The translations under genes and the position numbers were made by a program. DNA of 64,000 nucleotides from Dietzia sp. NCCP-2495 (GTDB taxonomy: Bacteria; Actinomycetota; Actinomycetes; Mycobacteriales; Mycobacteriaceae), in NCBI RefSeq assembly GCF_026011735.1, contig NZ_BRVN01000009.1, forward strand, positions 1 through 64,000, written 5' to 3'. The notes under the pieces were generated by a model. That model had not been told where the DNA came from, did no database searches, and saw nothing but the letters and a program-made list of their open reading frames with translations. This document shows, one piece after another, positions 4,725 through 53,936 of this stretch; position 1 is the stretch's first letter; the number at the start of each line of letters is the position of its first letter.

Positions 4725-4833
4725 GCCCCGCATGATAGCGCCCGAACCACCAGTCACACCGGTGACCGACGCGTGTTGGTCCAGACGGCGACGGGCGGCC
4801 GGACCGCGGCCGCCGGGAACCGGATCCCGGACG

Positions 4834-5313: not shown

Positions 5314-5314
5314 G

Positions 5315-5839: not shown

Positions 5840-6213
5840 CCGGCCACACCCTCGCGCGTGCGCCGGGCCACCACCGCGACGTCCGAGAACTCGGCGGGAA
5901 TGGGGGCCTGTGGCTTGTGCAGGGTCACCTCGACGGCGGTGGCGGTGGGCGCCATCTCCATGATCCCGTCGGCGATCCGGGACACGACGGTCTCGATGAG
6001 ATCGCACGCCGGACCGGACACGATGTCGCGGGCGAGAAGAGCCAGTGCCCCGTAGTCGACGGTATCGGCGAGATCGTCCGAGGCCGCGGCCCGCGAGAAG
6101 TCGGTCCAGAGCACCACGTCGACGAGGAAGTCCTGGCCGTCGCGCTTCTCGTGCTCGAAGACGCCGTGCTTGCCGCGGACCTTGAGTCCGGTGAGTTCGA
6201 TCCGGTCGGCCAT
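5836..6213 (-). CDS. folB: Dihydroneopterin aldolase
   Basis: Cleaves 7,8-dihydroneopterin to 6-hydroxymethyl-dihydropterin and glycolaldehyde. The 125-residue protein has the family pattern [27 protein letters not shown] near the N-terminus (including the conserved Glu), [15 protein letters not shown] and the Lys of the LHKPQAPIP segment near 100. Length fits the small tunnelling-fold aldolase. ATG at 6213, 2 bases after folP. Confidence 0.94.
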
Positions 6214-6215
6214 GG

Positions 6216-7097
6216 TCACTCTCCCGCTAGTCGGGCTCGTCCCGCGCGTCCCGCGGACCACGCCGCGGCGACCCGGACGGCGTCCGCGCTCGGGACGACA
6301 TCGTGCACCCGCACTCCCCACGCGCCTGCCGCGGCAGCGATCGACGTGACGGCCGCCGTGGCGGCGTCGCGCCCGGAGACCTCGCGGGGGCTGCCGTCCT
6401 GATCTGCCAGGAGCGCACCGATGAACCGCTTGCGCGAGGCCGCGACGAGCACCGGGAACCCGAGGTCGAGCAGCTGGTCGATGTCGCGGAGCAGCGCCCA
6501 GTTGTCGTCGGAGTCCTTGGCGAAGCCCAGTCCCGGGTCGAGGACGATGTCCTCGGCGGCGATGCCGGCGGCCAGCGCCGCGTCGGCCCGGCGGGCCAGG
6601 TGATCGCGGACCGAGCCCACCACGTCGCCGCCGTAATCGCTCCGGCCGCCCGCTCCCGCGTGGTAGTCGTCGGGCGAGACCCAGTGCATGAGGATCACCG
6701 GTGCACCGTGCTCCGCGACGACCCGGAGCATGTCCGGATCGGCGAGTCCGCCGGAGACGTCGTTGACGATTGTCGCGCCCTCGGCGAGCGCGCCTGCGGC
6801 GACGGATGCACGCATCGTGTCCACCGAGACGGGCACCCCGTCGGCGCGGAGTGCCCGTACGAGCGGGACGACCCGCTGCATCTCGTCGGACTCGGCGACC
6901 CTGATCGCGCCCGGCCGGGTGGATTCGCCTCCGACGTCGACGATGTCGGCACCGTCGGCGACCATCCGCCGAGCGTGGGCCACCGCGTCGTCGAACGCGA
7001 GGTGCCGTCCACCGTCGGAGAATGAATCGACGGTGATGTTGAGGATGCCCATGACCGCGCAGCGATCCGGTCGGGGCAGCCGGGGTGTCTCGCTCAC
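6216..7097 (-). CDS. folP: Dihydropteroate synthase
   Basis: Condenses hydroxymethyl-dihydropterin pyrophosphate with p-aminobenzoate; the sulfonamide target. A 293-residue TIM-barrel protein with [15 protein letters not shown] (first pterin loop), [11 protein letters not shown] (second loop), [25 protein letters not shown] and ASRKRFIG in the expected order. The loop-1 proline of many DHPS enzymes is Val here, comparable to the variant in mycobacterial FolP1. GTG start at 7097 overlaps the folE stop by 4 bases. Confidence 0.95.
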
Positions 7098-7762
7098 GTG
7101 CCGCGCAGGAGGCCGAGTGCCTCCGCCCTGCTCGCCGCGTTGGACCGCATGATGCCGCGGACGGCCGAGGTGGTGGTGACCGATCCCGGCTTACGGATGC
7201 CACGCATGGCCATGCACAGGTGCTCGCACTCGATCACCACGAGCACACCCGACGGGTCGAGCCGGTCGACCAGCGCGTCGGCGACCTGGCTGGTCAGGCG
7301 CTCCTGGACCTGGGGGCGCTTGGCGTAGAGATCGACGAGTCGCGCGAGCTTGCTCAGTCCGGTGACCGCCCCGGACTTGCCGGGGATGTAGCCGATGTGG
7401 GCGACCCCGTGGAACGGGACGAGGTGGTGCTCGCAGGTGGAGTAGATGGGGATGTCCCGCACCAGCACCAGTTCGCGATGGTCCTCGTTGAAGGTCTTGG
7501 CCAGCACCTCGGACGGGTCGGCGTACAGGCCCGAGAAGACCTCGCGGTAGGCACGGGTGACCCGGGCGGGCGTATCGCGCAGCCCTTCCCGGTCCGGGTC
7601 CTCACCGACGGCGATCAGCAGTTCACGTACCGCCGCCTCGGCGCGCTCCGCGTCGAACACGCGGTCCGTGCTCGCGCTGCCCGTGCTCGCACTGTCAGTG
7701 CTCGTGTTGCCCGTGGACACAGACACCTCGTCGACCCCGGGGCGATTCTCTGTGGTCGTCAT
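7094..7762 (-). CDS. folE: GTP cyclohydrolase I
   Basis: Converts GTP to 7,8-dihydroneopterin triphosphate, the entry to folate synthesis. Of 222 residues the last 185 form the conserved domain with [12 protein letters not shown] and [11 protein letters not shown], which supply the zinc-binding Cys-His-Cys set. The first 35 residues are a Ser/Thr/Asp/Gly repeat ([17 protein letters not shown]), likely disordered. The ATG at 7762 follows an AGAGGA ribosome site; the frame opens one codon earlier at a TTG. It heads the four folate genes and follows ftsH by 33 bases. Confidence 0.95.
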
Positions 7763-7795
7763 CAATCCTCTTCTCAGACGTCTACGACCGGGAGG

Positions 7796-10423
<2,628 letters not shown>

Positions 10424-10592
10424 TCGGTCCTCGTGTGGGGAGAACGGCCCCGCCGGACGGGGGACCAGGTGTTGCGACCGACTGGGTCGGTATCTGACCA
10501 GGCTACCTGCGAACTCCGACAGCCGACCGGCCTGATCGCCCACGGCGGACAGCGTGATCGAGGAGCGCGAACGGACACCGGGCTCGTCGTCG

Positions 10593-10598
10593 TACGAT
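10593..10598 (+). promoter_or_regulatory. -10 box of a leaderless amidase transcript
   Basis: TACGAT, matching TANNNT, ends 7 bases before the GTG at 10606. No ribosome site lies between, so transcription probably begins at the start codon itself. It lies in the 182-base region that also holds the divergent ftsH promoter. Confidence 0.5.
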
Positions 10599-10605
10599 CG
10601 TGGCC

Positions 10606-11958
10606 GTGACCAGCCCCCTGCCCACCGCCATCGACACCGCCGACGCCGTGCGTTCCGGCGAACTCGGCGCCCTGGAGGCCCTGGACGCCGCCGTCGACCG
10701 GATCACCGACGCCGATCCGACCCTGCGCGCCTTCACCTCGATCCTCCGCGCGGACGGACGGGCCGCCGGCGCCGCCGTCGACGCGATGGGCCCCGACCAG
10801 CGCGCGGCACTCCCCCTGGCGGGGGTCCCGCTGGCGATCAAGGGCACCGTCACCCTCGACAACCCGGTGGTCACGCCCCTGCTGGCGGCCGGGGCGCTCC
10901 CCGTCGGGATCACCGCGACCCCCCAACTGTGCACGTGGGGGATGACCGATTCCGACGCCCACGGCATCACCCGCAACCCACTGGACCTGTCCCTGACCTC
11001 GGGCGGATCCTCGGGAGGCTCGGCCACGTCCGTCGCCTCCGGGATGGTGCCGCTCGCGATCGGCGACGACGGCATGGGGTCGCTGCGCATCCCCTCCGCC
11101 GCCTGCGGCCTGGTCACCATCAAACCCGGAACCGGCGTGGTCCCCACCCGGTTGAGCGCCGGGAACTGGGGCGGACTCGCCGAGTCCGGACCGCTGGCGA
11201 GGACGGTCGCCGACGTGGCCCTGGCCCTGTCGGTCATGGCCGGACGCCCCGAGCTCGCCTCCCCCACAGAGGTGCCGGAGGGCACCCGGATCGGCCTGTC
11301 CGTCGCGAGCCCGATCCGCCTCGGGCTCGATCTGGTCCGCATCCACGAGCCGTGGATCCGTGCGGCCCGGGACGCGGCCTCGATCCTGCGTGGGCGGGAC
11401 CTCGTCGTCGTCGACACCTCCCTCCCCTCCCCGCGCGATCCGGTCCTCTACCTGGCCAGATGGACCTCCGCCGTCGCCCGGGCGGCCGAGGCCGAGAACC
11501 TGCCGCTGTCCGCGATGGAGCGTCGGACCCGCCACCACGCGCTGCTCGGGCGCACGGTGTTCCGCAACGGGATGGCGGGCGACGGCGACACCCGCTGGAA
11601 CCGCGGGGTCGAGGCACTGCGCGCCGAGGTCGAACGCGCGATGGACGCCGCCAGCGTGGACGTGTGGCTCACCCCGGCACTCGCCGACCTCCCGCCCGAG
11701 GCGACCGACTGGCACCGCCGCTCCTGGGGCCGCTCACTGTGGGCGTCGATGCGGTTCGCGCCGTTCTTCCCGCTCGCCAACGTCCTGGGCTGGCCCGCCA
11801 TGACCGTGCCGTGCGGCTCCACGCACACCACGCTCGGGCGGTACCTGCCCACGTCGGTCCAGTTGGTGGGTCGCCCCGGGTCCGAGGCGACCCTGTTGGC
11901 GCTCGCCGCGGCGATCGAGAGGGGCGACGACGACAACGCCCGCACCGCGGGTCGCTAG
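10606..11958 (+). CDS. Amidase-signature family hydrolase
   Basis: A 450-residue amidase-signature protein. The Ser-cisSer-Lys machinery is visible as the Lys of LAIKG near residue 77, the Gly-Ser-rich stretch [10 protein letters not shown] near 130 and [13 protein letters not shown] near 160, which holds the nucleophile. Such enzymes hydrolyse primary amides or related bonds; the substrate cannot be told. The GTG at 10606 is preferred because a -10 box lies 7 bases upstream; an in-frame GTG at 10600 also exists. It stands alone between ftsH and a leftward block. Confidence 0.85.
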
Positions 11959-11966
11959 CCGGGCAC

Positions 11967-12069
11967 CCGGCCCGATCAGTGGATCGGGCAACCGGCCTGG
12001 TCAGCGGATTCGGGCGGCCGGCCTGGTCAGCGTGTTCGGGCGGCCGGCCTGGTCAGTGGATCGGACAGC
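11967..12069. repeat. 26-bp tandem repeat, about four copies
   Basis: Units of the type CCGGCCTGGTCAGCGG plus ten bases begin at 11992, 12018 and 12044, with a more diverged copy before them. The array starts 8 bases after the amidase stop. The last unit contains the stop codon of the leftward gene at 12053. Confidence 0.85.
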
Positions 12070-12391
12070 CCGCGGGGGTGGCCGGCGTCCCGTCGTGGTG
12101 GTCGTACGGGGTCGACGTGATCCCGTTCTTCCTCGCCGAGACCCGCGAGGTCACCATGTTGATCCGCCAGAACCGGTCGCCGTTTCGGCCCCGCCACCTC
12201 AGACGCTGCTCCCGGAACGGCAGCGCGTCGACCGCCCTGTTGATCGCGATGTTCGCCGTCACCAGAGCGCCGACCACCTTCACCCACGGCGCGATGGTGA
12301 TGTCGTGAGCCGGAGTGGACGCGATCAGCGCCCGCGTCGCCGGCTCGCCACCGAAGTACGCCATCATCCCGAGTAGCGGCGCGATCGTCAT
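12053..12391 (-). CDS. Hypothetical protein, possibly a gene remnant
   Basis: A 112-residue frame with protein-like composition: a hydrophobic stretch (WVKVVGALVTANIAINRAV) and a tail with DRFWRINMVTSRVSARKNG and TPYDHHDGTPATPAGCPIH. The frame stays open for about 22 codons before the ATG with plausible sequence (VVASYANGNLTFGGR) but no start, then meets a stop. It may therefore be the 3' end of a longer, decayed gene. No family recognised. Confidence 0.4.
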   Translation of the reverse strand: MTIAPLLGMMAYFGGEPATRALIASTPAHDITIAPWVKVVGALVTANIAINRAVDALPFREQRLRWRGRNGDRFWRINMVTSRVSARKNGITSTPYDHHDGTPATPAGCPIH

Positions 12392-12493
12392 CCTGCCGCC
12401 GAAGGTGAGGTTCCCGTTGGCGTAGGAAGCAACAACCTGCTGTGGGGCTGGCGTTCACGTTCGAATTCGGGGGTCCGGTCCATGCCGGCCATT

Positions 12494-12577
12494 GTTCACT
12501 ACACGTACTGCCAGGAGAGTCGTTCACTACTCGCAGTGCTGGACAGGCCGCTCACTACGCGTACTGCTGCACGATCC
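12494..12577. repeat. 28-bp tandem repeat, three copies
   Basis: Units beginning GTTCACTAC or GCTCACTAC start at 12494, 12522 and 12550. The third contains the last codons and stop of the acyl-CoA synthetase gene; the other two extend into the intergenic region. Confidence 0.8.
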
Positions 12578-14090
12578 GGCGCTTGACCAGCTTGCCCGTC
12601 GGCGTACGGGGCAGCTCGTCGACGAAGTCCAGTCCGCGGGGCATCTTGAAATCCGAGATGGTGCCCCGCAACGCCCCGAGGATCTCCTCCGCCAGTTCCG
12701 GCCCGGGCTCGCGCCCCTCGGCAGCCACCACCACCGCGTACACCTTCTCCCCCAGATCCTCGTCGGGGATGCCGATCACGGCCACGTCCTCGACGGCCGG
12801 GTGCAGCACGAGCGCGTTCTCGATCTCCTGCGGGTAGATGTTCACGCCGCCCGAGATAATGGTGAACGCCTTGCGGTCGGTCAGGTAGAGGAAGCGGTCC
12901 TCATCGAGGTAGCCCACGTCGCCGAACGTGGCCCAGGTCGGGTGATCGGGGTGGCGGACGGACGCCGTCTTCTCGTCGTCGCCGTGGTACGAGAAAGAGT
13001 TCTCGTCGTTCTGCCAGTAGATGGTCCCGATCTCGCCGGTCGGGAGTTCGTTGCCGTCGTCGTCACAGATGTGCGCGATCCCCTTGAGCCCGTCCTTACC
13101 CACCGAGCCCGGCCGCTCGAGCGCCTCCTGCGAGTTGATGAACGTGATGCCCATTCCCTCGGTGGCCGAGTAGTACTCGTGGATCACCGGGCCCCACCAC
13201 TCGATCATGCGGCGCTTGACCTCCGGCGGGCACGGCGCGGCCGCGTGGATGGCGTGCGTCAGGCTCGACAGGTCGTACTTCGCGCGCGTGGCCTCCGGCA
13301 GCTTGAGCATGCGCACGAACATGGTCGGCACCCACTGCGAATGCGTGACCTCGTACTCCTGGATGAGCCGCAGTGACTCCTCCGCGTCGAAGCGGTCCAT
13401 GAGGATCACCGTGCCGCCGACCGAATTCACCACACCGCAGAACCGCAGCGGCGCAGCGTGATACAGCGGCGCCGGGCACAGGTAGATGCTGCTCGCATCG
13501 AAGCCGTAGAGGAAGCTGAAGATCGGCGTGTAATAGTCCGGCACCTCGTCGATCTGCCCCTCTGGCGGATCGACGCGCACGCCCTTCGGCCGGCCTGTGG
13601 TGCCGGAGGAATAGAGGAAGTCGTGGCCGCGGGGCTGATCCGCCGGCGCCTCGGTCGGCTGCCCCTCAAGCAACGTGCGGTAGTCCTCGAAGCCGGCGAG
13701 TTGGCCGCCGAACACCACGCGGTGCTCCACGCTCGGGTTCGCGCCCTCCGACAGATCGACATGGTCCGCCACTGGCGCGGAGACGAACAGAGCGCGTGCT
13801 CCGCAGTCGCCGATGATGTAGGACGACTCATCCGCGGTGAGATGGTGGTTGATGGCCGCGATGTAGAGGCCGACACGCAGCGCTCCCCAGTAGATCTCGA
13901 GCATCTCGAGGGTGTTGTCCGAGACCACCGCGATGGTCTCGCCGGGACGCATCCCCCAGTCGTCGACCAGCAGGTGCGCGAGCTGGGCCGATCGGGCCTC
14001 GAGCTCGGCGTACGTGACTTGCTCGCCCGTGGCGGGGCGGATGGCGGCGGGCTTGTCGGGCGTGGTGGCGGCGAAGGCTCCGGGGTACAT
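12555..14090 (-). CDS. Fatty acyl-CoA synthetase (AMP-binding)
   Basis: An ANL-superfamily enzyme of 511 residues that activates a carboxylic acid as acyl-AMP and then acyl-CoA. It shows the P-loop YSSGTTGRPKGV near 160, EYYSATEG near 300, GDVGYLDEDRFLYLTDRK near 400 and the catalytic lysine in PRTPTGKLVKRR near the end. Substrate is not decidable; closest in style to FadD-type acyl-CoA synthetases. The ATG at 14090 begins the family's usual N-terminus and has a TATGCT box 6 bases upstream. A palindromic Crp/GlxR-like site lies at 14113. Confidence 0.9.
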   Translation of the reverse strand: MYPGAFAATTPDKPAAIRPATGEQVTYAELEARSAQLAHLLVDDWGMRPGETIAVVSDNTLEMLEIYWGALRVGLYIAAINHHLTADESSYIIGDCGARALFVSAPVADHVDLSEGANPSVEHRVVFGGQLAGFEDYRTLLEGQPTEAPADQPRGHDFLYSSGTTGRPKGVRVDPPEGQIDEVPDYYTPIFSFLYGFDASSIYLCPAPLYHAAPLRFCGVVNSVGGTVILMDRFDAEESLRLIQEYEVTHSQWVPTMFVRMLKLPEATRAKYDLSSLTHAIHAAAPCPPEVKRRMIEWWGPVIHEYYSATEGMGITFINSQEALERPGSVGKDGLKGIAHICDDDGNELPTGEIGTIYWQNDENSFSYHGDDEKTASVRHPDHPTWATFGDVGYLDEDRFLYLTDRKAFTIISGGVNIYPQEIENALVLHPAVEDVAVIGIPDEDLGEKVYAVVVAAEGREPGPELAEEILGALRGTISDFKMPRGLDFVDELPRTPTGKLVKRRIVQQYA

Positions 14091-44770: not shown

Positions 44771-45670
44771 TCAGAAGTCGAAGAGTCCGCCGTCGAAGAA
44801 GCCTCCGCCGTCGCCACCGCCGCCGAAGAACCCGCCGCCACCGTCACCGCCGCCGAACATTCCGCCGTCGAAAAAGCCGCCGCCGTCGCCACCGGCATCT
44901 CCGCCCACGTCGCCGCCGTCACCTCCGAACAGTCCGCCGTCGAAGAACCCACCGTCGTCGCCACCGGCATCTCCGCCCATGTCACCGCCGAGCTCACCCA
45001 TGTCCGCGCCGCCCTCGCCGACCCCGGACGCGAAGTCCTCACCGGAGTACCCGACCCCCGCCATGCCGGCGAACATCATGTTGAACATCATCATCGAGCT
45101 CATCATCCACATGCCGCTGGCCAGCGCAGACGCCCACCACGGCTCGGAGTACCAGCCGGCGGGAACGGGCCGCCCGGCCACTACGCCGCCCGGGTAGTAG
45201 TGGGGCGTCTGGTCGCTCGGCCCGGTGGCCGCGCTCATGGTCCGACCGTCCACCTCGACGGTCCGGTCCTCGGTCACGCGCCCCGCCCGGCTCTGACCCG
45301 GGGTGGCTGGCAGCTCGGGACCGGGGTCCATACCCATCGCCTCCCGTGCCGCTCGCACGTAATAGAGCCCCTCGAGCGCGGTGTCCTTGGCCAGCTGCGC
45401 CTGCACGGGCGTCTGCGCGCGTTCCAACTCGGCGACCGCGGACGTGTACCGCTCCGAGGCGTCGGCCATGGCCTGCTTGGACGCGTCGTCGATCCCGTCG
45501 ATGTTGAACACCTGACCACCAAGTCGCTCGACCCACCGCGACGCCTCGGCCCGGTAGTCCTCGAGGTGGCGGTTCTGGTGCGCCTGCAGCTGCGTCTGCC
45601 CCTTGTTCTGACTACGGTTGACCATAGCGACGGTGATCGCGATCAGTGCGGCGATGAGGAGGAATTCCAC
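44771..45670 (-). CDS. Membrane protein with Gly/Asp/Phe repeat tail
   Basis: A 299-residue protein of unknown function. One membrane segment at about 3-17, a helical part, a Met-rich hydrophobic stretch (MWMMSSMMMFNMMFAGMAGV, about 189-208) and a last 85 residues made of repeats like GGGFFDGGLFGGD. The DNA of the tail is itself repetitive. The GTG at 45670 has GAAAGG upstream; the open frame continues to 45772 without support. Last chromosomal gene before the integrated element. Confidence 0.65.
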   Translation of the reverse strand: MEFLLIAALIAITVAMVNRSQNKGQTQLQAHQNRHLEDYRAEASRWVERLGGQVFNIDGIDDASKQAMADASERYTSAVAELERAQTPVQAQLAKDTALEGLYYVRAAREAMGMDPGPELPATPGQSRAGRVTEDRTVEVDGRTMSAATGPSDQTPHYYPGGVVAGRPVPAGWYSEPWWASALASGMWMMSSMMMFNMMFAGMAGVGYSGEDFASGVGEGGADMGELGGDMGGDAGGDDGGFFDGGLFGGDGGDVGGDAGGDGGGFFDGGMFGGGDGGGGFFGGGGDGGGFFDGGLFDF

Positions 45671-45794
45671 GGGCGACCTTTCTCGGTACTTCTTCACGAG
45701 CCTACCGAGATCGCGAATCAGGGGCGCCGGTGCGACGATCGCTCTGTACGGTGCCAGTCCCGCCCTGCCCACCGACTCCGGGGCCGGCGCCGGG

Positions 45795-45835: not shown

Positions 45836-45882
45836 GTGGAGCCGCGTGTCGGAATCGAACCGACGACCTTTTCATTACGAGT
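45836..45882. repeat. attL, 47-bp core
   Basis: Identical to 53860-53906. It carries only the acceptor, T-arm and anticodon-stem part of tRNA-Thr; the rest of the tRNA is absent here, so it is not a working tRNA gene. Confidence 0.92.
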
Positions 45883-46055
45883 TAGGTCTGAACCTACTCA
45901 CGTCGTGATTCGTGATCACACGCCGATTCACAAAAGCCCAGTAAGAAGCCTGTTTCCTATCGCTTTCACTGACTCTCGTGCAATGACGTGTGTGTGCACA
46001 TTGTGATCACACTGCAGAGGCTCGACGTGTCCCGCACGGCAATAGCATTCGACAC
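45883..46055. other. Left end of the element, candidate arm sites
   Basis: No gene. GTGATCACAC occurs at 45912 and 46003. The same 10-mer lies near the other end at 53786. Such shared end motifs are probable arm-type sites for integrase or excisionase. Confidence 0.45.
46043..46048 (+). promoter_or_regulatory. -10 box, leaderless small gene
   Basis: TAGCAT ends 7 bases before the ATG at 46056. Confidence 0.45.
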
Positions 46056-46322
46056 ATGAAGCGCGATCATTCACACCAGAACTACTCCACGTCCACGTGC
46101 CACACGTTGTGCTCGCACCCTGACTCCTACAAGGAGCGCAAGGCCTGCGTCTACGAGTGGTACCAGCGCCTGACACACCGACACTGCGATCACGACGACA
46201 CCCGCGACGCACGACGCGACTGCACACGCGCTCGCCTCAAGGGTGGACCCGCACGAGGGACAGGTGGACGCGATGCAGCGTTCCGCATGTCGGAGATGAT
46301 GCACAAGAGTCTTTCGGGGTAG
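46056..46322 (+). CDS. Small Cys/His-rich protein
   Basis: An 88-residue protein of unknown function, with five Cys and seven His residues clustered in the first 60 positions (TCHTLCSHPD, KACVYEWY, HRHCDHDD, RRDCTRAR), which suggests metal binding. The start at 46056 is chosen for the -10 box 7 bases upstream; the frame is open from 45990. First gene from the left end of the element. May be nucleic-acid binding; no homologue recognised. Confidence 0.5.
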   Translation: MKRDHSHQNYSTSTCHTLCSHPDSYKERKACVYEWYQRLTHRHCDHDDTRDARRDCTRARLKGGPARGTGGRDAAFRMSEMMHKSLSG

Positions 46323-46377
46323 CGAGCAAAGTCTCTTATCGTCCTCACGTCAGACCCCCGCTGCCCAGGAGGACACC

Positions 46378-46683
46378 ATGACCGAACCCAAGACTCTCTC
46401 CACCCGCGAGGTCGCCGAGAAGGTCGGCACCGACCCGAAGACCCTGCGAGTGTTCCTGCGTGCGACCTCGCAGGGTGTGGGATCAGGCAAGCGATACGCC
46501 CTGCCCGCGAAGGACGTTGCGAAGGTCAAGAAGGAGTTCGTCGCCTGGGAGGCTGAGCGACAGGCCGCGCGAGAAGCAGCCAACGACCAAGGCCCGTGCG
46601 ACAACTGCGGCGCGAAGGTCGACCTGTACCACGACGAAGCCTCCGGCTCGTCCCTGTGCGAGGACTGCGTGCCCGCCGAGTAA
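46378..46683 (+). CDS. HTH plus zinc-ribbon protein
   Basis: A 101-residue protein. The first 55 residues (LSTREVAEKVGTDPKTLRVFLRA) look like a helix-turn-helix similar to small phage DNA-binding proteins; the C-terminal part has CDNCGAKVDLYHDE and CEDC, a four-Cys zinc ribbon. AGGAGG precedes the ATG. Probably a DNA-binding regulator of the element. Confidence 0.75.
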   Translation: MTEPKTLSTREVAEKVGTDPKTLRVFLRATSQGVGSGKRYALPAKDVAKVKKEFVAWEAERQAAREAANDQGPCDNCGAKVDLYHDEASGSSLCEDCVPAE

Positions 46684-46732
46684 TCCCACACCCTCCCGAC
46701 TGCCCTCGCCTCGTGCGGGGGCAGTGGAGTAG

Positions 46733-47536
46733 TCAGTCGTCGCTCTGAGACTCGTCGTTACCATCAGTCGCGACAACCTGCTCAATCGCAGAGTACGTCC
46801 CCGTCACGTTCTCGATAATCCCGTGAACGTCGCCTGTTACATCCTCGACATGTCCAAGCGCGGCGAATATCCACAATGCCGCATTGCTAATCTTCTTCTT
46901 TAGTTCGGGGCTGGTTACACGCGAAAACAACCCCAGCCCCTCGGAAGCGGCTGAGGTCGCGTGTCGCTTTATAGCTGCCGCTCCGAAAGTGGAAGCGTGA
47001 GCCATGTACCACTCAGCCTGACGAAGATGATACGCAATCCGATCACGGATCGCCGGAGCAACTTCTGCAGCGTCGACTACGTCTTTCAAAGCCTCCAACG
47101 CTCGCAAGAGCTCAGTGAGTTCAGAGGACGTTGCCTGCCCCGATGGGTACGAGTTAGACGATTCTAGAAACTGGCCAAGACTTTCAAGCTGATCGAGTAC
47201 AGGCACATCGAGATGGTCAGCGAGCTTGATTCCCCCATTCCAATTAGGGTAACCAATGGCGTAACCATGCCACTTCTGCAGGTAAGGGGAATACCTGCGG
47301 TACTCACGCGATTCGTCCGGGAAGGCGCGAACCGTCGCGGAAACCTCACCGAATAGGTCCATCATCGCCGAATGGCGTTCGGAGAACTCCCGCGACGGAA
47401 AGCCCGCACCCAACGCGCTTGCCCACCCGTTCTGGAAGTTATCTTTCCCTGAGGTTCGTACACGCTCGAATAAGTCCCTCAGCGCGTACGCGGAGTTCGG
47501 TGCGTCCTCGATCTGCGGCTGTTCGCTTTCCGTCAT
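46733..47536 (-). CDS. Hypothetical cargo protein
   Basis: A 267-residue acidic, mostly helical protein, not recognised. Base composition is clearly more AT-rich than the rest of the window, which suggests recent transfer. The segment KKISNAALWIFAALGHVEDVTGDV near 220 could be amphipathic. It stands alone with its own 170-base upstream region at one end of the element, where satellites carry accessory genes such as anti-phage functions; that role is a guess. Confidence 0.7.
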   Translation of the reverse strand: MTESEQPQIEDAPNSAYALRDLFERVRTSGKDNFQNGWASALGAGFPSREFSERHSAMMDLFGEVSATVRAFPDESREYRRYSPYLQKWHGYAIGYPNWNGGIKLADHLDVPVLDQLESLGQFLESSNSYPSGQATSSELTELLRALEALKDVVDAAEVAPAIRDRIAYHLRQAEWYMAHASTFGAAAIKRHATSAASEGLGLFSRVTSPELKKKISNAALWIFAALGHVEDVTGDVHGIIENVTGTYSAIEQVVATDGNDESQSDD

Positions 47537-47706
47537 GCCAGCAGCGTAGCGGGTGGGTCGGACACAGCAGCGCCTGTGAGCGTCTGGGACACGGTGACCA
47601 TGTATGCACTCGTGCGGGACGGCGCCAGGCGCTCAGCAGCGAATCTAGCGCCCTCTGCACTCAGTCTCGCCGGCGTATTGCACAGCGAGACTGAATGAAC
47701 GAACGA

Positions 47707-48351
47707 TCAAGCGGCGGCGTCAGCCTCTACCCAGTTGAGCGAGAACTCAGGGAGACGGAACCCTGCGTCGATTCGTGCAGTCGCCATCGCCAGGTCGTGC
47801 CGGGCCACAGCAGCGATGCGCTCAGTCGCTCGCAGGTTGTCACTCGCTCGCACGTACTCAGGCGAGACGCGACGCTTGAACTCCTGCACAGCCTCGGGTG
47901 TCTCCAGACGGTCGATGACCTCCTGCGTGATGATCGCCTTGAGCGCGTCGTCGTGGCCCTCCGAGGCGACCAATTCCACACCTCTCTCTATGCGTCGCTG
48001 CCCCTCCTCCGCCTCGAGACTGCTCACGATGCTGTCCCTGCGACGCGAGAACGTGGCCTCTGCGAGCGAGCGCTCATCCGTTGAGCCCTTGGGCGAAGTG
48101 ATCGCAGCGTCAGCCACGCGCACGTCCTCCACCGCCTGGTCCACAGCCGCGTCAATCTGATCGCGCATGCCTGCGAGACGATCAGACCACTTGCGCTGTG
48201 CGTCCCACCCCTTGATGCGTTCCACACCCCCCGCCTCAGTGAGTGTGCGCGAGTCGTCCACCTCAGCCTCGACGCTCACAGCGTAGGTCGCGTGATCCTC
48301 GACAATGACCTTCATCTGGTCGATGTAGTCCTTCAGGTCCTCGATATCCAT
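47707..48351 (-). CDS. Hypothetical element protein, coiled-coil
   Basis: A 214-residue, highly charged, largely helical protein without a recognised domain (IDQMKVIVEDHATYAVSVEAEV near the start; LEAEEGQRRIERGVELVASE in the middle). It may form coiled coils. AAAGGAG lies upstream of the ATG. It follows the 99-residue gene by about 50 bases in the same direction and may share its transcript. Confidence 0.7.
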   Translation of the reverse strand: MDIEDLKDYIDQMKVIVEDHATYAVSVEAEVDDSRTLTEAGGVERIKGWDAQRKWSDRLAGMRDQIDAAVDQAVEDVRVADAAITSPKGSTDERSLAEATFSRRRDSIVSSLEAEEGQRRIERGVELVASEGHDDALKAIITQEVIDRLETPEAVQEFKRRVSPEYVRASDNLRATERIAAVARHDLAMATARIDAGFRLPEFSLNWVEADAAA

Positions 48352-48405
48352 TCCTCATTCTCCTTTCGACAGGGGCAAAAATTCTGGCCTGGATTGCTAT
48401 AGCAA

Positions 48406-48705
48406 TCACGCACTCGCCTTAGCAGGTGCAACGATCTCGGTCCGGAAGTAGTGTTCGGTGATTGCTTCTTCCCCGACCTCGACGACATATCCCCGCGTCT
48501 TCCAACAGGTGTCGTCGTGGTGAAGAATCATCACGGTCGGGTTCAGTACGTCGTCTACGCACCCGTGAGGCGTATTGCAGTCTGGACACATAACGTCCAC
48601 GTGAACCATCACCGAGACCTGGGACCCTTCCGGTCCGCCGTGTAGAAACTGCGCCCACTCTCGCTTTCCGCATAGAGCGCCTCGCAGATGCCTTAGTCGA
48701 ATCAT
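48406..48705 (-). CDS. Hypothetical element protein with Cys motif
   Basis: A 99-residue protein with MCPDCNTPHGCVDD near 40, a CxxC plus His-Gly-Cys group that may bind zinc, then DDTCWKTRGYVVEVG. No family recognised. AAGGAAGG precedes the ATG. First leftward gene after the iteron-like cluster. Confidence 0.68.
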   Translation of the reverse strand: MIRLRHLRGALCGKREWAQFLHGGPEGSQVSVMVHVDVMCPDCNTPHGCVDDVLNPTVMILHHDDTCWKTRGYVVEVGEEAITEHYFRTEIVAPAKASA

Positions 48706-48981
48706 CGAACTACCTTCCTTTCCGGATCGAATTAATGCTAAGAGAAGTTGGATTCAACTGAGCCATTAGTACGTCCTCGAATCGGCGTACCGGCGGTGTG
48801 TGCACTACGTACACACACGCACCGTCCCGGAAACGCGACTGGGGCGACCGTACTGAGTGTTCCGGGACATGTCCTGCCTGCAGTTATTCGCCAGTACGGT
48901 ACGGCGTTCCCGGAACACAAGAGCGTTCCCGAAGAGCGTTCCCGAAGGACACTCGCCAGTACGCCCTCCGGGAACGCCCTT
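48706..48981. other. Candidate replication origin region
   Basis: No gene is seen. It lies beyond the 3' end of the primase-helicase gene and upstream of three leftward genes, so it also holds their promoter. It contains six iteron-like copies and short direct and inverted repeats (next entry). Confidence 0.5.
48824..48977. repeat. Six iteron-like copies of GCGTTCCCGGAA
   Basis: Copies at 48904, 48923 and 48936 read GCGTTCCCGRA; inverted or diverged copies are at 48824, 48857 and 48966. The 10-mer CGCCAGTACG also occurs twice (48889, 48954). Clustered repeats beside a Rep-like gene are typical of plasmid and satellite origins. Confidence 0.65.
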
Positions 48982-50898
48982 TCACAAGGCCGGGCCTCGC
49001 GCTTTTCGATACGCAATCACTCGCTGAGTCTTCTCGGTACCGGCCTTGAGGCCCGCTTTGTTTATTGCCCTCGCAACCAGAACCCTGCCCGCGTCGTGGT
49101 CAAGGCCTGCATCGTCAACGGCCTCAACCAACGGGCGGATGCCTTCATCGACTTCCGTGAAGTCCAGATCAAGGAGTCCGTCGGAGGGTGTGGGAACGTC
49201 CCCGCCCAGCATTGTCGCCGCGTGCCCGAGTGGTTCCTGCGTTCGACGTATCGGCACGACGGATGCGAGGTCGCCCGTCCGGTCCTTGTCACAGACGAGC
49301 TTGAACCTTGACGAGTTCTTCTCGCCTTGAATAATCCAAGACCCGTCAACGTCGGTATTCTTCGCACTTGACCCTCGGGCACCTTTCGACTGATCCTTGC
49401 CCGTGTGATCCAGGCGGATGATCGTCACGCCGTCAGCCCTCAGCGGTGCGAGCGCATAGCGGTACAGAGCCGCATAGGTCGCTGCGTCGTTCTCATCTCC
49501 TTCTACGAAGCGAGAGAGCGTGTCGATCACGACAACCTCAGCCTGTACCCGTCGCACGTGTGCGACGAACTCAGCCCCTCCGCGTTCCGTGTCCAGCGGA
49601 AGGAGTGGGGGCATACTGGCGTACTTCAGGCGATTGAGGCCCCTCACGTCCATCTCTTGAAGTCGGGACATGATGATCCGTTGCGTGTTCTCGCCGTCGA
49701 TATAGAGAACAGTCAACGCCTTGGAGGGTGTGGAATCCCCGTCGGGAATCACAGCCCCCGGCAGCGCCTCGATGCCTCGTGCGAGTCGCTGCGAGATATC
49801 GAGCATCAGCAATGACTTGCCCATGCCCGCGTAACTCACGACCTGATATAGCCCGCCCCGTTGGAACACCTGCGGCACCAGCCATTCGACGGGCTCAATG
49901 CCTCGCGTCAGCAGGTCGTCAAGATCGAGCAGGGAAAGCCCGTTCTCGTCTTCGTGCGTTCCCGGCCCCTCGTCCCTCGTGCTCATCTCCCAGCACGCGA
50001 CGACCTGGCCCCTCAATCGGTCCTCGTGCTGGAACTTCGCCACGGACGGCTCGTGATTCGTGAGCACCCACAGCGCTTCCGCCTGACTCATTCCCGCTTC
50101 CTGGCATTCCTTGACCAGGCGCATGGTTCTCTTGAATCGAGCCGTCCCGTCACCGGGGTCTTCCTCGCGAAGTGCTCGCTTGATCGACCGGGGCACGACG
50201 GCGGGTTTCACAGGCTCGAATTGAAGGCCCTGAGAGCGATTCTGAGCGCCTGGCACCCGGTCATGTGAGTGTGCACTCGGTCGCACGTTCACAGCGACGC
50301 TGAGGCCCTGCTGGGTGTAGGTCGCGTCCGTGCGTTCGACTACCTCACACAGAGTCGGCGGGTCGTGTTTAAGGTTGCGAGTCCCCGGTAGCCGTAGGAA
50401 CCCCTCGTCGGTCGTCTTGTCATTCCCACACCCAAGGCACTCACCCAGCCCCTTCGCGAACGCTTGGTACTTATCGACTTCCACACCCTCCGGGACGGAG
50501 TAGTAAAGGTGCGAGTGACCCGGCGTTCCCGAGTTCACGACAAGCGTGGGCCTCAGTGCGCCTGGGTTCGTCATTGGGCGGTCCTGATCGACAACCACCC
50601 ATTGGCGCTCGACGGACGCGCCCTTGCGCTTGCTGTCCCCACTCCTGTGCACGAACGGACAGAAGAACAGTTCGCGCGTCATCGCGTGGGTCTCGATGTA
50701 CTCGCGCACGTCGTCTCGCTCTGCTGGCCACGCGAATGACTCTTGCTGCCAGTTGATCATCTTCGGCTTTCCGTTGACCACCTCGGCTCGCCCGCAACTT
50801 GCGAGCCATGCATAACCTTTTGCCTCCCCCAAGATGAGGTCCAGGTGCTCCATCGCGAGGTCGATATCCACGCCCTCGTCGGTGATCGCCACAGTCAT
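48982..50898 (-). CDS. Primase-helicase replication protein
   Basis: A 638-residue two-domain protein. The N-terminal half resembles RepB-type archaeo-eukaryotic primases: VVVDQDR near 103 with the paired aspartates, then SGTPGHSHLYY and FLRLPGTRNLK. The C-terminal half is a RecA-like ATPase: Walker A YAGMGKS near 352, Walker B VVVIDTLSRF near 456, then RLDHTGKDQSKGARGSSAK, typical of RepA/phage helicases. Such primase-helicase fusions start replication of satellites and plasmids at iterons. Its ATG overlaps the excisionase-like stop by 4 bases. Confidence 0.88.
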   Translation of the reverse strand: MTVAITDEGVDIDLAMEHLDLILGEAKGYAWLASCGRAEVVNGKPKMINWQQESFAWPAERDDVREYIETHAMTRELFFCPFVHRSGDSKRKGASVERQWVVVDQDRPMTNPGALRPTLVVNSGTPGHSHLYYSVPEGVEVDKYQAFAKGLGECLGCGNDKTTDEGFLRLPGTRNLKHDPPTLCEVVERTDATYTQQGLSVAVNVRPSAHSHDRVPGAQNRSQGLQFEPVKPAVVPRSIKRALREEDPGDGTARFKRTMRLVKECQEAGMSQAEALWVLTNHEPSVAKFQHEDRLRGQVVACWEMSTRDEGPGTHEDENGLSLLDLDDLLTRGIEPVEWLVPQVFQRGGLYQVVSYAGMGKSLLMLDISQRLARGIEALPGAVIPDGDSTPSKALTVLYIDGENTQRIIMSRLQEMDVRGLNRLKYASMPPLLPLDTERGGAEFVAHVRRVQAEVVVIDTLSRFVEGDENDAATYAALYRYALAPLRADGVTIIRLDHTGKDQSKGARGSSAKNTDVDGSWIIQGEKNSSRFKLVCDKDRTGDLASVVPIRRTQEPLGHAATMLGGDVPTPSDGLLDLDFTEVDEGIRPLVEAVDDAGLDHDAGRVLVARAINKAGLKAGTEKTQRVIAYRKARGPAL

Positions 50899-51248
50899 GC
50901 CCCCACCCCGAACAGGCGAGCGCCTGCGATCAGATCAGCGCCGAGGATGGATCGACCGCGGACCTTGTATCGCTTCGTAGAGACGATCACCGTCCCCTTG
51001 GGCGTAGTCATCGTCTCGCCCTGCACGGGAGGTGTGGGATCACTTCCCTCGTCCCGGATCCCGAGGTAGTCGAGAAGGGGCGCTGTCGGGAACTTGAAGT
51101 TCGAACCCAGTTGATGCATCGGCACCGGCAGCCTGTCTTCTTTGATCATTCGATAGACGTACGTCGTCGAGACATCCAGCGCCTTCGCCAGTTGCGGCAC
51201 CTTGATCGTCGCGGGCAATGCCAGCAGTTCTTCCCTTGTCATAGCCAT
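50895..51248 (-). CDS. Excisionase/AlpA-like HTH protein
   Basis: A 117-residue DNA-binding protein. KVPQLAKALDVSTTYVYRMIKEDRLPVPM at about 17-45 is a MerR-like/HTH_17 fold used by excisionases and AlpA regulators; the C-terminal 60 residues are unknown. AGGAAGG precedes the ATG at 51248. Its place, divergent from the repressor-like gene and translationally coupled to the primase, is that of the first derepressed gene in phage satellites. Confidence 0.8.
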   Translation of the reverse strand: MAMTREELLALPATIKVPQLAKALDVSTTYVYRMIKEDRLPVPMHQLGSNFKFPTAPLLDYLGIRDEGSDPTPPVQGETMTTPKGTVIVSTKRYKVRGRSILGADLIAGARLFGVGA

Positions 51249-51282
51249 GACTTAGCCTTCCTCATGTCACGTTCTGAGTTGA

Positions 51283-51367
51283 TTCATGATCGAACGGTGA
51301 CAATGTGCCATGCGTTCATGAACTAAGTCAAACGCGTGGCATGAAGGTGATACAGTCTTGTTCATGA
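51283..51367. promoter_or_regulatory. Control region between divergent genes
   Basis: TTCATGA occurs at 51283, 51315 and 51361. GTTCATGAAC at 51314-51323 is a perfect palindrome. TGCCATGCGTT (51306-51316) is inverted as AACGCGTGGCA (51331-51341) with one mismatch. TACAGT at 51351-51356 sits 7 bases before the ATG at 51364 as a -10 box. The sites are well placed for the repressor to control both genes. Confidence 0.55.
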
Positions 51368-51930
51368 GCGAATCGAGCACCGGTCGTATCGTCGGCGAGA
51401 ACCTACGCAAGCAGCGCATATCTGCTGGCCTGAGCCAGGCAGAGGTAGCGAGCAAGGCCAACTCGATGGGACTTTCATGGGCCCAGGCCAACGTCACGAC
51501 GATTGAGACGGGTCGCCGTCAGTCGATCACCATTGACGAACTGCTCGTGCTCTCAATCGTTTTCGAGTGCCCACTCTCGTCATGGTTCGCCGGCACGGGT
51601 GATGTGGCCGTGACTGAGCACATGAGCATGAAGCGCAGCGTCATCCGTGAGGCACTCGCGGGCGAGACTCCCACACCCTCCCGGGTCGTGTCCGTCGACT
51701 TCTCGACCGTCGAGGACTACAGCGCAGACGAAAGTGCGGCCCGAGTCCTTGGGATCACCCAGGAGCAGGTCACGCAGATTGCCGTGGACCTCTGGGGCCA
51801 CTCGCTCACCGCCGAACGCGACAAGCGCCTCAGCGAGCACGCCGACAAGTCCCCGCGAGAACTGCGCACCCTACGGGGCGGCATGACCAAGCGCCTCTCG
51901 AAGATCATTCGCCAGCAGATGGAGGAATAA
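51364..51930 (+). CDS. Xre-family repressor-like protein
   Basis: A 188-residue protein with an N-terminal HTH_3 domain: GENLRKQRISAGLSQAEVASKANSMG and ANVTTIETGRRQSITIDELLVLSIVFECPL lie at about 9-60 (quoted here in parts). The C-terminal half is helical with no peptidase motif, so not a LexA-type repressor. The ATG at 51364 has a -10 box 7 bases upstream; a TTG two codons earlier is unlikely. It precedes the integrase by 3 bases. By position it corresponds to the Stl master repressor of phage satellites. Confidence 0.82.
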   Translation: MSESSTGRIVGENLRKQRISAGLSQAEVASKANSMGLSWAQANVTTIETGRRQSITIDELLVLSIVFECPLSSWFAGTGDVAVTEHMSMKRSVIREALAGETPTPSRVVSVDFSTVEDYSADESAARVLGITQEQVTQIAVDLWGHSLTAERDKRLSEHADKSPRELRTLRGGMTKRLSKIIRQQMEE

Positions 51931-51933
51931 GCA

Positions 51934-53283
51934 ATGGCCCGTGGCTCTGTCTATCGACGGTGCGGCTGCTCAGAACTGGACCCGAGCACCGGGAAGCGAA
52001 AGCAACTCGGGCGGTCCTGCCCCAAGTTGAGGCGAGCGAACGGGCAGTGGGCGAACCACGGCGCGTGGGCTTTTACGCTCAGCCTCACGCTGCACACAGG
52101 CGAGCGCCGACAGGTCTCTCGATCTGGGTTCGATACTCGCGACGAGGCCGAGAAGGTCATGGATGACCTGCGAGCACAAGCAGCCAACGGCATTCGCGTA
52201 GACAAGCGCATCACGACGGGCGACTTCCTCACCCGATGGATCGACAGCAAGCACGACGTGAAGGCGAACACCGCTGCGCACTACAGGCGCTACATCGAGA
52301 AGGTCTTCATCCCCCACCTGGGCGGCATCGCCCTGGCCGACCTGCGAGCGCATCACATCACGGCGATGCTGCAGGAGGTCAACAGCAGCGCCCAGAATCG
52401 CCGTACGTCGTCTACCGGGAACGCGACGACACAACGTGTGCGAGCGGTCCTCAGAAGCGCGCTCAGCGACGCTGTGCGTGAGGGCTACATCTCCACGAAC
52501 CCGGCAGCCCTGGTGAAGATGCCCACTGCGACTCGCACGAAGGCCCTTGTGTGGACACGGGGGCGTGAGGACGAGTGGCGAGCAGAGGTCCAGCGATTGA
52601 TCAACGAGGGTTCCACACCCTCCCTCGCCCGGCGTAAGGCGAAGCGTCCGAGCAGCGTCATGGTGTGGCGAGGGGATCACCTTGGAACCTTCCTCGATCA
52701 CGTCGAACAGCACAGGCTCTACGCCCTCTTCTACGTCGCTGCGCACACGGGCATGAGGCGAGGGGAAGTGTGCGGCCTTCGATGGGCAGACGTGGACATG
52801 GACGCAGGCACGATCACGATTGAGCGCCAACTCGTCAACGTCGTGGGCAAGGTTCAGGAGGACTCGCCCAAGTCGAGCGCGTCAGGTCGCGTCGTCGCCA
52901 TCGGCAAGGAGGGTGTGGAAGTCCTCAAGGCCCATCGCGCTCGCACCAATGCTGATCGTCTCGCCTGGGGACCTGCCTACTCCCACACCTCCCGAGTGTT
53001 CGTGCGCGAGGACGGGACAGACCTCGATCCCTCGTGGCTCCTGAAGGAGTTCCAGCGCCAGGCATTCAAGGCCGATCTACCGCCTGTGCGATTCCACGAC
53101 CTACGCCACGCGGCAGCGTCCCTGATGCTGGCCTCTGGTTCGTCCATGAAGGTCGTCTCGACCGTCCTCGGGCATTCGTCCACGGCGATCACGTCAGACG
53201 TTTACACGAGCGTGTACGACGATGCGGGCGCCGCAGCTGTCGATGCGATGCGCGCGCTCATCCCTCGCAACCAGGCGCGCTAG
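51934..53283 (+). CDS. int: Tyrosine integrase
   Basis: A 449-residue tyrosine recombinase. The first 40 residues hold several Cys (RRCGCSE, GRSCPK), possibly a small zinc-binding fold; then come an arm-binding/SAM-like domain (about 85-165) and the catalytic domain with Arg in HTGMRRGEVCGLRW near 272, HDLRH near 388, the His of LGHSS and the nucleophile Tyr in ITSDVYTSV near 428. All catalytic residues are present. It should recombine the 47-bp core in tRNA-Thr. GAGGAA lies upstream of the ATG, at the end of the repressor-like gene. Confidence 0.94.
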   Translation: MARGSVYRRCGCSELDPSTGKRKQLGRSCPKLRRANGQWANHGAWAFTLSLTLHTGERRQVSRSGFDTRDEAEKVMDDLRAQAANGIRVDKRITTGDFLTRWIDSKHDVKANTAAHYRRYIEKVFIPHLGGIALADLRAHHITAMLQEVNSSAQNRRTSSTGNATTQRVRAVLRSALSDAVREGYISTNPAALVKMPTATRTKALVWTRGREDEWRAEVQRLINEGSTPSLARRKAKRPSSVMVWRGDHLGTFLDHVEQHRLYALFYVAAHTGMRRGEVCGLRWADVDMDAGTITIERQLVNVVGKVQEDSPKSSASGRVVAIGKEGVEVLKAHRARTNADRLAWGPAYSHTSRVFVREDGTDLDPSWLLKEFQRQAFKADLPPVRFHDLRHAAASLMLASGSSMKVVSTVLGHSSTAITSDVYTSVYDDAGAAAVDAMRALIPRNQAR

Positions 53284-53744
53284 AGGTGAATGATCTTTTC
53301 GAGCTCCTCAGGGAGATAGGGGAAGTACTCATTCGCGTCTCCATAATTATCTGCGACTTCCTGGCTGCCAAACTTCGAGCGGGCTTGTTCGTAGCCGGGT
53401 GTTTGGAGTCGACGGACCGTATCCACATAGTTGTCGAAGTCCCTGATCTTCAGGCCGCCCCCGCCGAGGATCGGCCCGACGCTGAGGAACGACAGCAAGT
53501 ATGCGAGCCCGTCTGCTCCGACCAAGCGAGAAACGTCCACCCAGCGAGAATTGCCGCCGGGATCGCACTGTCGGCCGGAAGTCTCCTTGTGAACAATCCG
53601 GAATCGATCAACTGCGGAATCGTCATCCCAACTCTGCGTCCAGACCACGATGCCTTGTCCGGGCTCGCCGATCGTCTCGCCACATTCGTCACAGATCCAG
53701 GTCGCTGGTGTCGTCGTCACCCACGGGAACTTACCCCGCGCCAC
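53280..53744 (-). CDS. Hypothetical protein with Zn-finger-like start
   Basis: A 154-residue protein, not recognised. WICDECGETIGEPGQG near 17 and a later His and Cys (VHKETSGRQC) could form a zinc site; the rest is mixed alpha/beta. GTG start at 53744, with no clear ribosome site. It overlaps the integrase 3' end by 4 bases tail to tail and is the last gene at the right end, so it may be accessory cargo. Confidence 0.62.
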   Translation of the reverse strand: MARGKFPWVTTTPATWICDECGETIGEPGQGIVVWTQSWDDDSAVDRFRIVHKETSGRQCDPGGNSRWVDVSRLVGADGLAYLLSFLSVGPILGGGGLKIRDFDNYVDTVRRLQTPGYEQARSKFGSQEVADNYGDANEYFPYLPEELEKIIHL

Positions 53745-53785
53745 CCGTCCAGTGTCGCGCTTCGCAGAACGCTCGTGTTCATAGT

Positions 53786-53795
53786 GTGATCACAC
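53786..53795. promoter_or_regulatory. Right-end arm-site candidate
   Basis: GTGATCACAC, part of the 12-bp palindrome GTGTGATCACAC, shared with 45912 and 46003 at the other end. The surroundings at 46003 and 53786 also agree (CACACTGCAGA and CACACAGCAGA). Confidence 0.45.
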
Positions 53796-53819
53796 AGCAG
53801 ACTTCGCACAGATGCTCGA

Positions 53820-53855
53820 AAGGCCCCTAACGCGCTGATGCACGTCAGAGGCCCT
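53820..53855 (-). terminator. Element-borne terminator for the rebuilt tRNA
   Basis: On the minus strand, just past the tRNA 3' end, a 13-bp stem (53843-53855 with 53820-53832, three G-T pairs) closes a 10-base loop and is followed by a short T run. It replaces the chromosomal terminator cut off by integration. Confidence 0.55.
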
Positions 53856-53859
53856 CCTA

Positions 53860-53906
53860 GTGGAGCCGCGTGTCGGAATCGAACCGACGACCTTTTCATT
53901 ACGAGT
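53860..53906. repeat. attR, 47-bp core
   Basis: Identical to 45836-45882. It supplies the 3' part of the intact tRNA-Thr gene, so integration leaves the tRNA functional. Confidence 0.92.
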
Positions 53907-53936
53907 GAAATGCTCTACCGACTGAGCTAACGCGGC
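53861..53936 (-). tRNA. tRNA-Thr(CGT)
   Basis: A full cloverleaf of 76 bases: acceptor GCCGCGT with ACGCGGC, D-arm GCTC/GAGC, anticodon loop CTCGTAA with anticodon CGT, T-arm GTCGG TTCGATT CCGAC, and an encoded CCA end. Reads ACG codons. Its 3' half is the integration core of the element. Confidence 0.96.

Follow-up and report, generated by a model that had tools for sequence, protein, structure and literature searches.

A putative capsid-less phage satellite of PICI-like design in a tRNA-Thr gene of Dietzia sp. NCCP-2495

Described satellites and the tRNA-Thr element

Phage-inducible chromosomal islands (PICIs) share a gene order in which two regulatory genes diverge, with the integrase on one side, the excisionase, replication gene and origin on the other, accessory genes at the ends, and no structural or lytic genes (PMC6092414). 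In the part of that account available to us, they are typically about 15 kb long, although not strictly so, carry genes unique to PICIs, and occupy attachment (att) sites never used by prophages. They are induced by a helper phage, replicate with it, are packaged by it and interfere with it (PMC6092414). Here we describe an 8,071-bp element at positions 45836-53906 of a 64,000-nucleotide stretch (the window) of Dietzia sp. NCCP-2495, located on contig C9 of a genome of 3.69 Mb in 64 contigs. The element lies in a tRNA-Thr gene and, judged from its sequence, is probably an integrated and seemingly intact phage satellite that follows the PICI design but lacks a capsid. Its integrase and repressor genes are set against an excisionase-replication-origin block, no phage structural or lytic gene is recognised among its nine proteins (Pfam, PHROGs, NCBIfam and PADLOC), and one of its genes, called C here, is specific to elements of this kind within a sample of 401 genomes; in these respects it resembles PICIs as portrayed in the available text of PMC6092414. 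It differs from that portrait in being 8 kb rather than about 15 kb long, in having no recognised small-terminase gene (terS), and in using a RepA-like helicase.

Candidate PICIs have been reported from Mycobacterium, part of them found by SatelliteFinder as well (PMC10654092). Like our element they are actinobacterial, carry an integrase and in some cases replication genes, and include tyrosine-integrase examples in tRNA genes. In the accessible portion of the report their defining features are an integrase and a major capsid gene, whereas the element carries genes C, B and D and no capsid, and that definition would therefore miss it. Three related loci found here (L026, L032 and L170; L numbers denote fetched loci, G numbers genomes, and C7, C9 and the like contigs of the own genome) do fit the description. 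The phage-inducible chromosomal minimalist islands (PICMI) of Vibrionaceae are also small, with a core of integrase, alpA and primase genes and no recognised capsid-remodelling or terS gene, but they sit in fis rather than tRNA-Thr (PMC10803314). Our element has a different replication protein that matches none of the primase Pfam families of the PICMI model, has in addition an Xre repressor and an iteron cluster, and shares its genome with a second satellite, a situation never observed for PICMI in the available pages of that source.

Capsid-forming PICIs (cf-PICIs) and the Streptomyces satellites MulchRoom and MiniFlayer share the satellite life style, and the latter two also belong to Actinomycetota, but according to the excerpt available they encode capsid and packaging genes (PMC10690885). 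None of these is recognised in the element; capsid genes are present in the related loci L026, L032 and L037. Actinobacterial integrative and conjugative elements (AICEs) such as pSAM2 likewise integrate and carry int and rep genes, but the element has no recognised FtsK/SpoIIIE-type Tra and none of the Rep types (RepSA, RepAM, Prim-Pol) given for AICEs in the accessible text of PMC3218068, RepSA being judged by the clear AAA_25/RepA-like assignment of Rep.

Because the gene order, the absences and the unique genes match those of PICIs, and the defining features of cf-PICIs, PICMI and AICEs are missing, we class the element as a PICI-like satellite and not as a proven PICI. The phylum is not new for PICIs, since actinobacterial candidates are already published (PMC10654092, as far as its available text goes); the less usual feature is the lack of both a capsid and a recognisable terS. 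A literature search by the features of the elements, conducted without a certain genus name, found no description of them, and experimental validation of such elements lags in Actinobacteria, by the part of PMC10023795 at hand.

Boundaries, core genes and candidate control sites

The coordinates of the features are collected in Table 1. The two att copies are identical at 47 of 47 positions and lie 8,024 bp apart from start to start, which bears out the 47-bp direct repeats around some 8.1 kb in tRNA-Thr reported in the initial annotation. No second exact repeat of at least 16 bp, spaced by 4-19 kb, occurs in the surrounding 14 kb, and the GC content is 0.608 inside the element versus 0.705 in the remaining window. 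Across the 64 kb, the motif GTGATCACA is restricted to the flanks of both att copies; two of its three sites also match on the other strand at a position shifted by one base, and the 46003 site is part of a 27-nt repeat (45992-46018 versus 53775-53801, 85% identity). From this distribution, the sites may be arm-type sites of the integrase; they and the RTTCATGANC sites described below are additional to the features listed in the initial annotation. The product of the host gene to the left of the element (44771-45772) has a long C-terminal region rich in Gly, Asp and Phe.

Among the core genes, the Xre gene and the integrase gene are both on the plus strand, separated by 3 bp, and were rightly described as codirectional. 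The coupling of an excisionase/AlpA-like helix-turn-helix (HTH) gene to a primase-helicase gene on the opposite strand also stands, the two overlapping by 4 bp, but of the product only the helicase domain is clear, the primase being a profile-level match of the N terminus (DNA primase phrog_10514, E 2e-9, residues 19-198). Rep further matches phrog_3123 (E 4e-28) and, weakly, the RepA helicase structure 1g8y (E 0.008). The iteron-like cluster holds up as well: the 9-mer CGGGAACGC occurs there four times, counting both strands, and none of 500 dinucleotide shuffles reaches four. The sequence RTTCATGANC is confined, within the 64 kb, to the divergent xis/xre region or its edge, where it has four matches when both strands are counted, a number reached by none of 100 shuffles; the shorter TTCATGA is present at four additional places. 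The position of the three RTTCATGANC sites suggests that they could be operators of the repressor.

Table 1. Position of the element's genes and candidate sites in the window
Feature	Position	Strand	Evidence or remark
att copy distal to int, 47 bp, 3' part of tRNA-Thr	45836..45882	+	exact direct repeat of 53860-53906
Candidate arm-type site GTGATCACA	45912..45920		1 of 3 places in 64 kb
Candidate arm-type site GTGATCACA	46003..46011		inside 27-nt repeat
S88, small Cys/His-rich open reading frame (ORF), 88 aa	46056..46322	+	two C-x-H-(x)n-[AE]R[RK]-x-C motifs
A, MerR-like HTH protein, 101 aa, distal-end gene	46378..46683	+	phrog_15118, E 7.5e-11
B, 267 aa, probably anti-phage accessory	46733..47536	-	contexts of relatives
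C, 214 aa, family marker of the host genus's satellites	47707..48351	-	profile search, 6 strong places
D, 99 aa, Cys pairs	48406..48705	-	ORF caller using GC by codon position
Iteron-like cluster, candidate replication origin	48706..48981		recurrent 9-mer, adjoins rep
rep, AAA_25/RepA-like helicase with primase-like N terminus, 638 aa	48982..50898	-	AAA_25, E 8e-21
xis/alpA-like HTH_17 protein, 117 aa	50895..51248	-	HTH_17, E 4.9e-5; TIGR01764 excise, E 1.1e-5
Three RTTCATGANC sites, candidate repressor operators	51282..51369		starts 51282, 51314, 51360
Xre/CI-type repressor, 190 aa, Stl-like position	51358..51930	+	HTH_3, E 2.1e-7
Tyrosine integrase, 449 aa	51934..53283	+	Phage_integrase, E 1.7e-23
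E, 154-aa accessory, between int and att	53280..53744	-	phrog_35745, E 6.8e-22
Candidate arm-type site GTGATCACA	53786..53794		1 of 3 places in 64 kb
att copy at the tRNA-Thr gene	53860..53906	+	exact repeat; tRNA prediction
Intact tRNA-Thr(CGT), attachment gene	53861..53936	-	complete tRNA; att copy is its 3' part

Relatives of the core and of the cargo

Relatives of Rep occur in 20 of 301 family genomes, the own genome included, and 19 loci of 18-20 kb were fetched around them. In six of these loci, tRNA-matching direct repeats enclose int and rep. L026 (tRNA-Gly) encodes a major capsid protein (MCP) and a head-tail adaptor; L030 (tRNA-Ala) and L031 (tRNA-Val) have small-terminase matches, and L028 (tRNA-Val) a weak one (E 0.0043). 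L037 (tRNA-Val; genome G292, 2297-13421, 11 kb) is cf-PICI-like, with large terminase (TerL), portal and capsid genes. The sixth is L032, and MCP genes are present in three of the six (L026, L032 and L037). Small-terminase matches were also obtained for L027 and L029, and serine recombinases are found in L029 and L170. Rep relatives appear to include non-satellites, an example being L040, where the relative lies near a long tail-type gene and the locus, by eye, has the look of a full prophage.

L032 belongs to another genus of the same family and provides what had been proposed as a check, namely the same core in tRNA-Thr with different cargo in a related genome. It occupies the identical tRNA-Thr(CGT) site, and its xis, rep and gene A are ordered as in our element; identity between the two is 52-53% for the integrase, 52% for Xre, 34% for xis, 33% for part of Rep, and 59% over 59 aligned columns for gene A. 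Its middle cargo is of capsid type, comprising an MCP (phrog_10), a head-tail adaptor (phrog_1290) and an HNH nuclease (phrog_333). The att copies of L032 (3608-3652 and 13359-13403) form an imperfect repeat (41/45), and some of the four differing bases are, by eye, in paired T-stem positions, a pattern that would be expected had the incoming copy been acquired from a host whose tRNA-Thr is a variant.

Pfam families were assigned to 88 ORFs of eight att-bounded elements (the six above, the element on own contig C7 described below, and the present one). The ORFs came from a simple caller, which in C7 missed an HTH gene and a 119-aa gene that were scanned later. An integrase was found in eight elements, AAA_25 in seven, a capsid in three and a terminase small subunit in two. 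No FtsK, Tra or relaxase was among the 25 of 32 Pfam families listed, in keeping with the expectation that related elements would lack transfer genes; capsid or small-terminase genes are there instead. A Prim-Pol domain was found in one of the 88 ORFs. In sequence collections, Rep relatives were found in 32 phage records versus one plasmid record, the latter distant. Rep, C and B, each searched singly against viral contigs, had no matches, nor did Rep against general genome contigs; the integrase pair, searched against the latter, had a single distant match, in Virgibacillus.

Gene C ties the element to others in the host genus. A weak relative in the second element of the own genome (BLASTP E 0.004, 26% identity in the alignment) was followed up with a profile built from two rows, which, at an E threshold of 0.01, gave matches in 13 of 401 genomes. 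Strong matches (E at most about 1e-24) occur at six places in five genomes, all of the host genus (G000 twice, G072, G003, G218 and G190), and five of the six places are inside int-bearing elements. Besides the present one, these are a 7,211-bp element in tRNA-Arg(ACG) on own contig C7, elements of 7,111 bp in G072 and 6,628 bp in G190, both in tRNA-Asn, and a 13,865-bp element in tRNA-Met in G003 (L194:2364-16228), so that the att-bounded relatives with C span 6.6-13.9 kb. The sixth place is on a 4.2-kb contig of G218, another contig of which has int, xre and alpA at tRNA-Arg(ACG). A tape-measure protein of 1,528 aa is encoded in the G003 element, which by eye also has an insertion sequence transposase; this element could be a decayed prophage or else a satellite that carries a tail gene. 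When the capsid, adaptor, HNH and terminase genes of other elements were used as queries, nothing matched beside C or int in C7, G072, G190 and G218, and an additional PHROGs scan of C7 was equally negative. The matches in the other eight genomes are weak (E 6.6e-5 to 0.008) and look like chance or coiled-coil similarity; in the six of these eight loci that were fetched, the sole relatives of element genes are of Xre type (L197 and L202), and L197 reads as a prophage.

At the five other places C is preceded by an HTH gene, which in every case matches phrog_5536. This gene overlaps the start of C in C7, G072, G190 and G218, and in G003 it lies about 640 bp before C with another possible ORF between. 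Its position and make-up lead us to guess at a small terminase, although phrog_5536 itself carries no functional assignment. After C, four relatives have a conserved noncoding stretch with hairpin-like repeats (L178:15805-16000; L195:1697-1900; L196:9331-9500; L193 near 9000-9172). The corresponding motif pattern, allowing up to three mismatches, is present in 3 of 23 genus genomes, always after C, the G072 copy being too diverged for the pattern. It is a candidate packaging site, and a terminator would explain it equally well.

C7 and G072 share a rep region of 91% DNA identity and have diverged integrases and different attB genes, and we therefore take them to have undergone recent exchange. 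Integrase, primase and C of the relatives are under purifying selection, with dN/dS values of 0.08-0.09, 0.10 and 0.17-0.34, respectively; the values for C come from four pairs of more than 65% identity, a range for which the C of this window is too diverged. Searches of the PDB with alignments of C and of the HTH partner returned nothing interpretable. In tblastn searches, no phage sequence was matched by C, B or D, by a relative of C or by one HTH partner; a second HTH partner produced one weak match of 55 residues. The possibility that C, like the genes following rep in L026, L028 and L037, is a scaffold found no support in profile comparison.

Occupancy of the tRNA-Thr region was compared in 20 genomes of the genus; of its 23, the own genome was set aside, as were G234 and G248, where the flank was unmatched. 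The left-flank gene has a counterpart within the fetched stretch in 15 of the 20; some of the remaining contigs do not extend far enough to judge. G072 and G170 have empty sites, with about 260 and 200 bp, respectively, from that gene to the tRNA and no integrase between; in most of the others, host genes lie between the two. In G200, integrase fragments 83-86% identical to this integrase adjoin the tRNA and represent a decayed relative. Among the last 14 called ORFs nearest the tRNA, no relative of an element gene was found in any of the 20 genomes (phmmer, E up to 1e-4).

The five small genes that were initially noted without a function (A to E) are present, but there is a sixth small ORF, S88, besides. 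In the filtered ORFs of loci longer than 6 kb (4,948, overlaps and repeats included), the S88 motif is found at four distinct places, two in S88 and two in L029 (two genes). Relatives of A occur in L026, L029, L032 and L170, and also among actinophage HTH proteins. Relatives of B are found in 6 other genomes of 397. The one in G112 (L170) adjoins gene A, and the element there also encodes an adaptor and a capsid; the one in G702 (L167:9285-14618), from another family of the same order, adjoins a ResIII helicase and an N6/N4 methylase; such contexts, next to helicase and methylase or phage-type element genes, suggest a role of B in defence. L168 and L169 have B relatives near a ResIII-type helicase and N6/N4 methylase by eye (the families were tested in L167), and the contexts in G620 and G714 resemble that of G702, also by eye. 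The neighbours of B at the L167-type loci may form a defence cluster, and B itself is unmatched in PADLOC. D is unmatched among phage sequences and has, by eye, a short resemblance to a 64-aa ORF of L194. E is 37.5% identical to a gene in 13 Gordonia phage records, which in phage Attis lies between tail genes and the integrase, close to genes annotated as toxin and antitoxin. B and E are probably anti-phage accessories.

The own genome contains, besides this element, the second capsid-less satellite (C7, 7.2 kb) and, on contig C2 at about 125-164 kb, a siphophage-type prophage with TerL, portal, MCP and tape-measure genes, whose integrase adjoins tRNA-Arg(TCT). On contig C20 (L177:4002-6092) there is an int-xre-alpA trio (alpA by eye) at tRNA-Leu with no rep behind it, a possible satellite remnant.

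Explanations compared, and a possible life cycle

Several observations count against the satellite reading. As had been noted initially, no packaging or capsid-remodelling gene is evident: terS, capsid, scaffold and known redirecting genes are all unrecognised among the nine proteins in the four databases. As a single query, C finds only itself in 397 genomes, it is only 20-27% identical to the other C proteins, its HTH partner gene is missing from this element, and the noncoding motif is absent from this window. The best weak match of the C profile (G388) adjoins a tape-measure-sized ORF in a prophage-like region, a context that leaves room for a remote tie of C to virion genes. The Xis/AlpA-type matches (HTH_17 and TIGR01764) fall slightly under the curated cut-offs. 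At the sensitivity used, a packaging site common to the element and the own prophage was unsupported, the best match being 20 bp (E 0.065), and that prophage is therefore only a candidate helper.

Three other origins have to be weighed. The actinophage relatives of Rep, gene A and gene E, and the tape-measure gene still present in the G003 element, would suit the remains of a temperate prophage, reduced by loss of its virion genes to those for integration, immunity and replication. Nevertheless, the recognised genes are open and compact, small layouts of a similar kind are found again at various tRNA genes of the genus, where purifying selection acts on those relatives, and the tRNA-Thr sister L032 has capsid genes in the cargo position and no phage-length genome, so we consider a remnant improbable. 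A small tRNA-integrated layout of int, xis, rep and regulator is also AICE-like in the available text of PMC3218068, and this, with the Prim-Pol domain of the survey, could point to an AICE derivative or an integrative mobilisable element moved in trans by a conjugative element. Such an origin is quite improbable given that no FtsK/SpoIIIE Tra, RepAM or Prim-Pol is matched in the element by Pfam, that the families listed for the relatives include neither FtsK nor relaxase, that Rep relatives are mostly in phage records, and that the relatives contain phage head and terminase genes. The element might finally be a self-replicating integrative plasmid that bears no relation to phages and is disseminated by transformation or generalised transduction, as its own Rep and iteron cluster and the want of a recognised packaging gene would allow; this is very unlikely in view of the Xre gene facing xis-rep across operator-like repeats, which suggests induction on cue, the virion and terminase genes in relatives, and the single distant Rep match in the plasmid collection.

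For the satellite of PICI-like design, which we prefer, the following cycle can be proposed from gene content and site arrangement. In the quiescent state the Xre protein would occupy the RTTCATGANC operators between its own gene and xis, until a helper phage lifts the repression. Xis and Int would then excise a circle by way of the att cores and the GTGATCACA arm sites, Rep would unwind the iteron origin so that the element multiplies, and the terminase of the helper would package it into helper capsids. Protein C is the best candidate for a link between the element and packaging by the helper, or for a means of interfering with the helper. The initial idea of an actinobacterial satellite with its own replication is thus supported by the core of L032, the lack of transfer genes, and the capsid and small-terminase genes of relatives, but its induction, replication and packaging are inferred, and the phylum had already been published for PICI candidates. 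In its behaviour, the element is most likely the actinobacterial equivalent of packaging-dependent islands (PICI and PICMI) and not of the capsid-forming PICIs.

A broader proposal, to which we give less than even credence, is that the element represents a minimal actinobacterial satellite lineage without a capsid or recognisable terS, in which C, accompanied by its HTH partner at the other places and on its own here, is a new factor for packaging or helper takeover, and that the int-xre-xis-rep chassis swaps capsid-forming cargo (as in L032) for C-type cargo, both strategies arising by cargo exchange. If the satellite reading is right, a non-capsid satellite lineage shares a genome with a prophage and a second satellite, and helper dependence would be testable in one strain. 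The two tRNA-Thr elements, this one and L032, offer a natural comparison of a capsid-less and a capsid-forming satellite on one chassis.

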